Shown: in pieces, positions 7,973 through 56,285 of the stretch
Numbering within the stretch: position 1 is the first letter of the stretch
Layout: each line of letters begins with the position of its first letter
Assembly: GCF_017641085.1 (NCBI RefSeq)
Contig: NZ_JAEPPI010000001.1
Coordinates: forward strand, 372,001-436,000
DNA: 64,000 nucleotides
Direction of reading: 5' to 3'
DNA from: Gracilimonas sp.
Lineage (GTDB): Bacteria > Bacteroidota > Rhodothermia > Balneolales > Balneolaceae
Notes under the pieces: model-generated
Databases searched by the model: none
What the model was told of the DNA's origin: nothing
Seen by the model: the letters and a program-made list of their open reading frames with translations, nothing else
Position numbers and translations under genes: made by a program

Positions 7973-8344
7973 TTAAGATTTGTTTGAAAATATTTTTCGT
8001 TTGAACTCGGGTTTCTTTCCAAAATTAAAAAGAAGTCCGACTTCAATATTAGTTGCTCTCAGGTAATTGATTAACTGAAATTCATGTTCTTGCATTAGTT
8101 TTCTGGATGCTTTCAGTTCTAAAATAACCTTCTCTTCTACTAAAACATCTGCAAAGAAAGTACCAACTTTTTGATTCCTATATTGTACTTCAATAGGCAC
8201 TTGATTTACTACATTCAACCCTTGTCTTTTTAACTCAATCAACAGAGCATTCTCATATACACTTTCCAAAAACCCATAACCCAGCTTGTTGTAAACCAGG
8301 TAGAAAGACTCAATGATTTTTTCAGTTAATTTTTCATGAAGCAT
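7973..8344 (-). CDS. GxxExxY protein (PD-(D/E)XK-like fold, PF13366)
   Basis: A 123-residue protein with the eponymous motif G24-F-L-E27-S-V-Y30 (YGFLESVYENAL). A PD-(D/E)XK-like core follows: D66 in FFADVLVEE and E76-x-K78 in VILELKAS. The C-terminal part (EHEFQLINYLRATNIEVGLLFNFG) is also typical. The fold is related to nucleases, but no activity is established for the family. The gene is isolated and lies inside a pair of imperfect inverted repeats (7922-7960 and 8423-8461), which suggests that it travels or spreads as a unit. It is more AT-rich by eye than its neighbours, consistent with transfer. Confidence 0.93.
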   Translation of the reverse strand: MLHEKLTEKIIESFYLVYNKLGYGFLESVYENALLIELKRQGLNVVNQVPIEVQYRNQKVGTFFADVLVEEKVILELKASRKLMQEHEFQLINYLRATNIEVGLLFNFGKKPEFKRKIFSNKS

Positions 8345-15186: not shown

Positions 15187-15325
15187 GAATGACGAGCGAC
15201 CAGCGACGAGTGACTAACGGTCAGTTAACAGTGAACAGGAATCAGAAACTCCTACAGATTTTAATTTTGACTTTAGGCTTAGTAAACCCAACCTTCTGTC
15301 AATCGTCAATCGTCAATCGTCAATC
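15187..15325. repeat. paired 7-bp-period degenerate repeats upstream of rsmA
   Basis: From 15187 eight consecutive heptads follow NNGACNA or a close variant (ATGACGA, GCGACCA, GCGACGA, GTGACTA, ACGGTCA, GTTAACA, GTGAACA, GGAATCA). After a spacer of about 55 bp, four perfect copies of GTCAATC fill 15298-15325, which on the other strand are GAC-type heptads. The two halves are therefore inverted relative to each other. The block ends 6 bp before the rsmA start codon. Confidence 0.7.
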
Positions 15326-16105: not shown

Positions 16106-16160
16106 CCCGGGAACCCTTCCTTCCTTAAAAGTGCTGTTAGTGATCAATTACGTCCGCTAT

Positions 16161-16178: not shown

Positions 16179-16195
16179 TGGTACGGAACTTGCAT
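16179..16195 (+). promoter_or_regulatory. putative sigma-54 (-24/-12) promoter of groES-groEL
   Basis: TGGTACGGAACTTGCAT fits the sigma-54 consensus TGGCACG-N4-TTGCA with one substitution in the -24 block. The GG at 16180-16181 and the GC at 16192-16193 are exactly 12 bp apart, the invariant spacing. A start near 16205 would give a leader of about 70 nt to groES. It is seen directly in the sequence; its use by RpoN is inference. Confidence 0.65.
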
Positions 16196-16273: not shown

Positions 16274-16561
16274 ATGGCTAAGATTCAACCTTTAGGCGAC
16301 CGCGTGTTGGTACAGGCAGAACCTGCCGAAGAGAAAACCAGCTCCGGGATTATCATTCCAGATACGGCTAAAGAAAAACCGCAACAAGGTACTGTGATAG
16401 CGGTAGGTGCCGGTAAAGTGGAAAACGGCAATAAAATTGAAATGAGCGTTAAGGAAGGAGACAAAGTTCTCTACGGGAAGTACGCAGGTACAGAAGTAAC
16501 TCTTGAAGGAGAAGAGTACCTGATTATGCGCGAATCTGACATTATGGGAATTGTTTCGTAA
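16274..16561 (+). CDS. groES: co-chaperonin GroES
   Basis: A 95-residue 10-kDa chaperonin that forms the heptameric lid of GroEL in the cytoplasm. It starts [21 protein letters not shown]. The mobile loop is [21 protein letters not shown] with the hydrophobic III contact, and the C-terminal strand is [15 protein letters not shown]. An AGGAG Shine-Dalgarno at 16261-16265 supports the start. It is the first gene of groES-groEL (49 bp apart) and probably expressed from the -24/-12 element at 16179-16195. Confidence 0.98.
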
Positions 16562-16610: not shown

Positions 16611-18281
<1,671 letters not shown>

Positions 18282-54341: not shown

Positions 54342-54377
54342 AAGCCCCCGCTCATGCATATGAGCGGGGGCTTTTTT
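54342..54377 (+). terminator. intrinsic terminator of the TonB-dependent receptor gene
   Basis: AAGCCCCCGCTCAT, loop GCAT, ATGAGCGGGGGCTT: fourteen perfect pairs, followed by a run of six T (54372-54377). Its stem closely resembles the terminator at 56778-56811. Confidence 0.92.
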
Positions 54378-54444
54378 ATGCCATTTACTAAAAGGGATGT
54401 CATAATGAAGTAACTTTGTCATTTCATGGGAAGAGATAGATTGA

Positions 54445-54461
54445 TGGCATACTATTTGCTC
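54445..54461 (+). promoter_or_regulatory. putative sigma-54 (-24/-12) promoter of grpE-dnaJ
   Basis: TGGCATACTATTTGCTC fits TGGCACG-N4-TTGCA well: TGGCA and TTGC are intact. The GG at 54446-54447 and the GC at 54458-54459 are exactly 12 bp apart. A start near 54471 would leave a leader of about 42 nt before grpE. Confidence 0.65.
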
Positions 54462-54512: not shown

Positions 54513-55094
54513 ATGAGCAAAGAAAAGATTTCAGAAGAAGATATCTCGACTCAGGAAGAGGTCGCTGAAGAAGTTCAAGATAATGAAACGGCTTCTGAGG
54601 CTGGCAATGAAGAACAAGAATCAGCCAGGAACGATAAAGATGCGAGAATTGAAGAGCTGGAGCAGGAACTGGCGAACACTAAAGATGGTCTGCTTCGTAA
54701 AGCGGCTGAGTTAGAAAACGTTCGCAAGCGTGTACAGCGCGAACGCGTTCAGCTTTTTGAAGAAGCGAAGGCCGGCGCCCTTGAAGACTTTATGCCCATC
54801 AGTGACGACCTGTTACGAACCCTTAAGGCAGCCGAAGAATCAGAAATAGAAGACAGCTTTCTGGAAGGGGTGAAAATGGTTGCCGATAAATTTGAGAAGG
54901 TGCTGGAAAAGCACGGCGTTGAACGCATCAACGAGACAGGTGTGCCCTTTGACGTGAACCTACACGATGCCATGATGAAACAACCCGCCCCGAATGAAGA
55001 AACCGGAAGTGATGTGGTTCTTCAGGTACTGGACAGTGGCTACAAAATTGGCAATCGCACAATCCGTCATGCTAAAGTTATAGTGAGCGAATAA
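54513..55094 (+). CDS. grpE: nucleotide exchange factor GrpE
   Basis: A 193-residue cochaperone that releases ADP from DnaK. Residues 1-50 are acidic and disordered (EEDISTQEEVAEEVQDNETA), followed by a long dimerising helix (ELEQELANTKDGLLRKAAELENVRKR split over heptads) and the C-terminal beta wing: GVERINETGVPFDVNLHDAM, VLQVLDSGYKIGNRTIRHAKVIVSE. Length is normal. It lies 3 bp before dnaJ and begins an operon with a -24/-12 element upstream. dnaK is not in this window. Confidence 0.97.
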   Translation: MSKEKISEEDISTQEEVAEEVQDNETASEAGNEEQESARNDKDARIEELEQELANTKDGLLRKAAELENVRKRVQRERVQLFEEAKAGALEDFMPISDDLLRTLKAAEESEIEDSFLEGVKMVADKFEKVLEKHGVERINETGVPFDVNLHDAMMKQPAPNEETGSDVVLQVLDSGYKIGNRTIRHAKVIVSE

Positions 55095-55097
55095 GAC

Positions 55098-56285
55098 ATG
55101 TCTACCCAAAGAGATTATTACGAAATATTAGGAGTTGATAAAGGTGCTTCAGAGTCGGAGATAAAAAAGGCCTATCGAAAAATGGCCATGAAGTACCACC
55201 CCGACCGTAACAAGGGAGATAAAGAAGCAGAGAAGAAATTCAAAGAGGCGTCTGAGGCGTACGAAGTACTCAAAGATTCTGATAAAAGAGCCCGGTATGA
55301 TCAGTTTGGTCACCAGGGAGTGAATGGAAATGGTGGCTTTGGCGGCGGAGCCGGAGTGGACTTTGACAATATGGGCTTCGAAGATATTTTCAGCCGTTTT
55401 GGGGATATCTTTGGTAGCGGATTTTTTGGAGAAGAAGCTTTCGGGGGTGGAGGCCGCAGAGGTCGCTCCCGAAGCAGGAAAGAACCCGGACAACCCGGTT
55501 CTGACATGAAAATCAGAATGCCTTTGACGCTTGAAGAAATTGCTTTTGGAGCCGAGAAGAAGCTCAAAATCAAAAAGCAGATCAAATGTGATGAGTGTAA
55601 CGGTACCGGTGCAGAAACTAATTCCGACTTTGAAACATGCGGAACCTGTAATGGAATGGGTGAAGTACGGCAGGTAACACGAACCATGCTTGGACAAATG
55701 GTGAACGTTCAGGCTTGTCCGAATTGTGCAGGTGAAGGCCGCATCATCAAGAGTAAATGTAAGAAATGTGGTGGTGAAGGCCGTGTGAAAGGGGAAGAAA
55801 CCATTAAAGTTAATATCCCTTCCGGTGTTTCCAATGGAAATTACATCACGCTGCGCGGACAGGGTAATGCCGGTCGTCGTGGTGGCTCAGCCGGGGCGTT
55901 AATTGTGCTTATAGAAGAGAAAGAGCACGAGCATTTTGACCGCGATGGGAACAATATCTATTACAACTTAACCCTGAGCGTGCCTGATGCAATTTTGGGA
56001 ACCGAAGTACAGGTTCCTACACTGAAGGGTAAAGCCAAGCTTAAAATCGATCCCGGAACACAGCCCGGAAAAATGTTGCGTATGCGCGGGCGTGGGATTA
56101 AAGGGTTGAATAATTCAGGCGATGGCGATCAGTATGTACGCCTAAATGTGTACATCCCTGAAGAATTGACGGACAAGCAAAAAGAAGCCGTCAAGTCATT
56201 TAAAGACGAAGAGAATTTTGACCCATCTAACCTGGATGGTAGCGAGAAGAATTTCTTCTCTAAAATGAAGGACATGTTTGGTTAA
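55098..56285 (+). CDS. dnaJ: chaperone DnaJ (type I Hsp40)
   Basis: A 395-residue type I J-protein that stimulates DnaK. The J-domain has the HPD motif ([20 protein letters not shown]). A Gly/Phe-rich region follows ([20 protein letters not shown]), then four CxxCxGxG zinc-binding repeats ([40 protein letters not shown]) and the two C-terminal substrate-binding beta domains ([25 protein letters not shown]). The last residues carry Asp/Phe ([10 protein letters not shown]). It follows grpE by 3 bp in one operon. Confidence 0.98.

Follow-up and report, generated by a model that had tools for sequence, protein, structure and literature searches.

Chaperone genes are usually described as targets of sigma-32 or of HrcA, a repressor acting at an inverted repeat (CIRCE), and sigma-54 is usually described in connection with nitrogen, flagella and the cell surface. 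The available part of one study of Flavobacterium psychrophilum (PMC9723704) describes a sigma-54 regulon, SM4, with mapped starts and -24/-12 elements before groESL, dnaK, grpE-dnaJ, clpB, lon and htpG, and, under SM5, lists lptE along with a gene for a probable sigma-54 activator. According to the accessible portion of a 2025 study (PMC12316311), the genes behind sigma-54 promoters in Bacteroidota and Planctomycetota are enriched in those for GroEL, GroES, IbpA, GrpE, DnaJ and DnaK, and the study names FliS as well as the GrpE and GroES of B. thetaiotaomicron; its main text, as far as available, contains no occurrence of 'Balneol', 'Rhodotherm' or 'HrcA', and the accessible text of PMC3162934 contains none of groE or dnaK. 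Among the matches listed, mostly open literature and main texts, none dealt with sigma-54 and chaperones in Balneolota.

Here we describe a window of 64,000 nt from Gracilimonas sp., in which grpE-dnaJ and groESL are each preceded by a candidate sigma-54 promoter. As in SM4, -24/-12 elements are found at groESL, dnaK and grpE-dnaJ, and clpB has a variant in which the -12 is altered; F. psychrophilum belongs to Bacteroidota, however, not Balneolota, and what is available of that study assigns no activator to the chaperone genes and describes no upstream box (PMC9723704). On the evidence of the available parts of both studies, a sigma-54 chaperone regulon is already published for Bacteroidota (PMC9723704, PMC12316311), and the Balneolota case is new to the literature searched. 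The less familiar features here are the exchange with HrcA and a close, apparently phased box.

The -24/-12 element before grpE-dnaJ

The sequence TGGCATACTATTTGCTC was found at 54445-54461 on the + strand, where the earlier note had placed it, with the TGGCA and TTGC context present and a GG-to-GC distance of 12 bp (GG-N10-GC), as is standard for sigma-54 promoters. The distance to grpE, previously given as about 50 bp, is 53 nt from the last C of TTGC (54459) to the ATG at 54513, and transcription of grpE-dnaJ would start at about 54471. Since the gene upstream seems to end with a hairpin and T-run, grpE should start a transcript of its own. The nearest named relatives of its product are the GrpE proteins of Gracilimonas, Balneola and other Balneolaceae.

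Features of the window discussed in the text (position 1 is the first letter of the window)
Feature	Position	Strand	Basis or remark
Possible groES activator box TCAATTACGTCC, 10/12	16144..16155	+	23 nt upstream of TGG; best within 70 nt
Predicted -24/-12 sigma-54 promoter element of groESL, TGGTACGGAACTTGCA	16179..16194	+	genome scan, family comparison
groES	16274..16561	+	PF00166
groEL	16611..18281	+	sequence search
Hairpin and T-run, probable terminator of the gene upstream of grpE	54344..54377	+	read by eye
Putative activator box GTAACTTTGTCA	54410..54421	+	23 nt upstream of the -24 TGG
Predicted -24/-12 sigma-54 promoter element of grpE-dnaJ, TGGCATACTATTTGCT	54445..54460	+	position, window statistics, conservation
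grpE	54513..55094	+	PF01025
dnaJ	55098..56285	+	PF00226, PF00684, PF01556

Taken alone, the grpE element is at chance level. TGGCAN6TTGC occurs once in the window against 0.64 expected, at least one match being found in 41 of 100 shuffles, and the genome as a whole (3.49 Mb, 7 contigs) holds 32 matches, the reversed pattern giving 22. Of the 30 genome matches that were classified, 24 fall inside ORFs according to a mechanical longest-ORF rule. All of this is in keeping with a chance match to a loose consensus. The argument of the earlier note, that two such sites in one window were unlikely to be chance, is unsound by itself: window-only statistics are weaker than it stated, and conservation decides instead. 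When both strands of the window were scored with weights built from the sigma-54 consensus, the groES site ranked first and the grpE site third. The second-ranked site, TTGGTACTTTCTTTGCA at 8150-8166 on the - strand, lies within a 123-aa ORF (7973-8344) and is probably chance.

Conservation was assessed at 110 grpE loci, made up of 80 named loci and 30 from a set of 37 genomes (grpE was found in 34 of these; the 30 loci examined include the window's own). The element was present at 57 of 66 loci without hrcA, again counting the window's own, versus 0 of 44 with hrcA, and at 48 of 55 versus 0 of 39 after removal of near-duplicates; the loci share descent and orthologous promoters are not independent observations, so no P value is claimed. 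Among the nine hrcA-less misses, five have TTGT for TTGC, two are contigs cut at grpE, and two, L229 and L245 (Ignavibacteriae), lack any such element before grpE. Absence from close relatives had been named beforehand as an outcome that would speak against the site; the element precedes grpE in all nine other genomes of the genus, reading [AG]TGGCAT[AG]CTATTTGC[TA], while the flanks diverge. Among the 80 named loci, 29 also have it as the top-scoring position of the entire locus; this scoring omitted the final 60 nt ahead of the match and so excluded six further positives (L181, L186, L191, L192, L196 and L228). Because the element is conserved at grpE in hrcA-less loci, we take chance to be refuted for the family, and as an account of this site we consider it extremely improbable. 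It is this comparison across relatives, rather than the count in the window, that makes the element real, and it is very probably a genuine sigma-54 promoter kept across Balneolaceae. In L238, which has a promoter similar to that of genome G012, the -12 is altered to TTGT.

Genes sharing the element and the sigma-54 machinery

A strict pattern, TTGGYAYN5TTGCW, gave five matches in the genome and one for the reversed control. Three of the five are intergenic and precede groES, hsp20-dnaK and a second hsp20, and the other two fall inside ORFs; the second hsp20 precedes a trypsin-like protease gene, about 2 kb before clpB. The looser TGGCAN6TTGC adds grpE, ftsH and fliS, its six intergenic matches being those before hsp20-dnaK, grpE, the second hsp20, ftsH, what we take from its sequence to be fliS, and one unclear case (L023). 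Flagellar genes are classical sigma-54 targets. At the fliS-like gene the element stands 130 nt upstream (L011, C1:746136) and the box described below is absent at 12 or 23 nt; this gene is therefore probably served by another activator. At clpB the -24 and the spacing are kept, with TGGT or TGGC at -12 in most loci of the family and TGGT replacing TTGC in the genus.

The -24/-12 element is thus present at groESL, at grpE-dnaJ and, through the hsp20 in front of it, at dnaK. Of the further genes that the earlier note named for checking, hsp20 and, behind it, dnaK do carry the element, whereas clpB has only a variant with an altered -12. A genome filled with equally good sites before unrelated genes would have counted against the proposal; instead, the scan singled out chaperone genes.

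Genes for the sigma-54 machinery were identified as well. The genome encodes rpoN (2.8e-55), and rpoN matches above the cut-off were obtained in 34 of the 37 genomes; there was no match in G036 (82% complete) and only a weak one in G017 (78% complete). Nor was there a match in G012 (98% complete), though elements at grpE and groES (L047, L073) are present there. G012 is a small family genome with an open activator frame (L282), in which the absence of rpoN would be an assembly gap or a loss.

The sigma-54 reading comes from sequence, and TGGCAN6TTGC might instead be the site of some other DNA-binding protein. Against this, GG-N10-GC is kept while the middle varies, rpoN is present, and sigma-54-type starts have been mapped at the homologous genes of F. 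psychrophilum, as reported in the available part of that study (PMC9723704); we regard such a protein as very improbable. Taken together, the genome scan, the relatives and the presence of rpoN with four activators support the shared sigma-54 chaperone regulon that the earlier note suggested. We estimate at about 0.87 the probability that the element belongs to a sigma-54 chaperone and protease regulon, its sigma-54 dependence being a prediction.

Distribution of HrcA and CIRCE among families

The genomes were grouped into the family of the window, Balneolaceae (f1), and four other families (f2 to f5). hrcA was found in nine of the 37 genomes (f2, 1/1; f3, 5/5; f5, 3/4) and in none of the 22 f1 or the five f4 genomes. 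Upstream of groES, examined at 30 loci out of 33 genomes with groEL, the -24/-12 pattern is present at all 18 f1 loci, with TTGC at 17 of them and TTGT at the other. CIRCE was found at none of these 18; it precedes groES in f2 (1/1), f3 (5/5) and f5 (2/3). The f2 locus has, besides CIRCE, a -24/-12-like match at 183 nt. Three f4 loci and G033 showed neither -24/-12 nor CIRCE by the patterns used; the f4 groES upstream region shows TTGGCACGGTTTTTTCT, ending TTTTCT. HrcA/CIRCE is therefore present at groES, and as hrcA beside grpE, in the neighbouring f2, f3 and most of f5, whereas neither hrcA nor CIRCE was found in the Balneolaceae genomes and loci compared. In the f4 groES promoters L085, L086 and L091, TTTGGCACGG is kept and TTTTTTCT replaces TTGC at -12.

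In f3 and f5, dnaK or hsp20-dnaK has -24/-12-like elements although hrcA is retained. In a tree built on the GroEL, DnaK and ClpB sequences of 30 genomes, HrcA-bearing families separate f1 from f4, the placement of f4 beside f3 and f5 being weakly supported. A likely history is that sigma-54 control of dnaK came first and was followed by separate losses of HrcA in f1 and f4, sigma-54 likely taking over grpE and, in f1, groES. Although f3 retains HrcA, and CIRCE at groES, its loci L117, L119 and L122 have -24/-12-like elements at dnaK, with a full copy of the box described below at 12 nt in L117 and at 23 nt in L122.

The upstream box, a candidate activator and proposed control

A short motif recurs at a set distance upstream of the element. 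Of 43 non-redundant grpE promoters, 37 have YGWCA at 22 or 23 nt upstream of the T of TGG, compared with a maximum of three at any one distance in 300 shuffles; four of the six promoters without the box are f4-like (of the TTGGTATG type). At hsp20-dnaK it stands at 23 nt in 11 of 22 promoters, with further copies at 43 and 31, and at clpB it stands at 12 nt in 7 of 11. Each pattern was applied to 30 loci, with 12 matches for clpB and 24 for hsp20; the six loci that the hsp20 pattern missed are L102, which is cut, three f3 loci without an hsp20 ORF before dnaK, and two f4 loci. The logo of the grpE box is GYAASTTTGWCA, its YGWC part being the selection rule, and in combination with hsp20-dnaK and clpB it gives the consensus GYMANTNYGWCA. 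The spacings of 12 and 23 nt are one helical turn apart.

A scan for the box combined with -24/-12 covered the window together with 298 loci, or 3.14 million positions when both strands are counted. Matches were obtained at spacers of 12 (9), 22 (18), 23 (40), 24 (3) and 49 (1), and none at the remaining 51 spacers from 5 to 60. Because these counts include orthologs and repeated loci and the box was derived from the same promoters, the weight of this result rests on three operons with a common geometry. Without the geometry the box is not rare (three in the window versus 1.69 expected), and a genome scan with YGTCAN3YGWCAG was rejected as a means of listing the regulon, with four matches against five for the reversed control; the four include two expected ones, at hsp20-dnaK and at the activator gene considered below.

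Operons outside the definition of the box were also scored over 12 positions, two of them free, although they had been seen before scoring and the comparison is not blind. The best box within 70 nt at the second hsp20 of the genome is 11/12 at 23 nt. The near box at groES is not kept at a fixed place in the genus, nor was one found across the relatives compared. At groES, YGWCA is commonest at 84 nt (6 of 16, compared with at most 3 in shuffles). This site falls within the last part of the preceding gene, and the coding of that gene could account for the recurrence. At ftsH a tied 9/12 box at 12 nt is no better than the 9/12 boxes of fliS at 56 and 30 nt. Tandem copies of CGTCAAT in the window (15304-15324), just before the ORF upstream of groES, vary in number among close relatives. 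They were considered as a remote groES enhancer and dropped; among the loci examined they occur only at the groES region of this genome, G001, G005 and G006.

The box might instead belong to a vegetative promoter of grpE, with TAACTTTG (54411-54418) as its -7 element and the -24/-12 element as a second, minor promoter. TAACTTTG does fit TAnnTTTG, the sigma-A -7 consensus given in the available part of PMC9723704. The T of TA, however, is conserved in just 24 of the 37 box-bearing promoters (which were chosen by YGWC, so that this part is invariant by selection), the hsp20-dnaK version of the box, GTCAATACGTCA, departs from TAnnTTTG, and a fixed distance to the -24 is unexpected for an independent promoter. 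We therefore find this explanation unlikely, and prefer to read the box as an activator site of the sigma-54 promoter; both grpE promoters could also be working, at different times.

Four proteins in the genome have a strong Sigma54_activat domain and HTH_8. Receiver domains were found in three of these and none in the fourth, a 430-residue protein adjoining lptE that consists of an AAA+ domain and a Fis-type HTH, with about 120 residues between the AAA+ lid and the HTH. Enhancer-binding proteins of the PspF type likewise combine AAA+ with a Fis-type HTH and lack a receiver domain; the lptE-linked protein differs in its stretch of about 120 residues and in its neighbour, lptE. It occurs in 34 of the 37 genomes at 58-100% identity, and was not found in G016, G031 and G034 (71%, 88% and 88% complete). 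Among the four activator genes of the genome it alone has a full box, GTCATTCTGACA, within 300 nt upstream. A full box precedes it at 11 of the 30 loci examined and in 9 of 10 of the genus, and was not seen in the distant families among those 30 loci. Because its own gene carries the same box, the lptE-linked activator probably regulates itself.

A sigma-54 regulon served by another activator (an NtrC-like protein of the L132 type, adjoining folD, or that of L134), or by an unrelated regulator at the box, is a serious competitor, to which we give roughly a one-in-three chance in our own weighing. The genome has four activators to choose from, L132-type sequences recur across the family, L134 has an 11/12 box upstream, and strict spacing is unusual for activators that act by looping. 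Only the lptE-linked protein, on the other hand, both shows no receiver domain and has a full box upstream, and on balance we lean towards it as the activator of the chaperone regulon. The activator gene L134 encodes a response regulator and neighbours a gene for a probable histidine kinase; its 11/12 box and a sigma-54-like element, TGGTATGATATTAGCT, stand upstream of 1039.

Sigma-54 RNA polymerase waits at its promoters in a closed complex. We propose that grpE-dnaJ would be transcribed from the -24/-12 core of such a promoter, within a regulon that would comprise groESL, hsp20-dnaK, grpE-dnaJ, the second hsp20, ftsH and, with a variant -12, clpB. An AAA+ activator, most likely the receiver-less lptE-linked protein, would bind the box, which precedes the TGG of the -24 by 12 or 22-23 nt, and open the closed complex, presumably in response to protein-folding stress. 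PspF is held by PspA in enterobacteria; chaperones or an envelope signal may keep the lptE-linked activator inactive. The sigma-54 regulon would thereby replace HrcA/CIRCE in Balneolaceae, other families of the order keeping HrcA/CIRCE. In its full form the proposal is tentative, and we hold it at somewhat less than even odds: HrcA/CIRCE would have been lost in Balneolaceae, and separately in f4, and the proteostasis genes would have passed to the lptE-linked activator, acting from a site fixed on one face of the helix, at about -62 to -50 or a single turn closer, where sigma-54 enhancers are usually remote and freely placed.

These findings would extend the published Bacteroidota sigma-54 regulon to Balneolota. 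They offer a switch from HrcA/CIRCE to sigma-54 that can be followed by setting families of a single order side by side, with a candidate activator and a candidate site, and the fixed, close position of that site would make it a helpful example of sigma-54 activators contacting the polymerase with no long loop in between.
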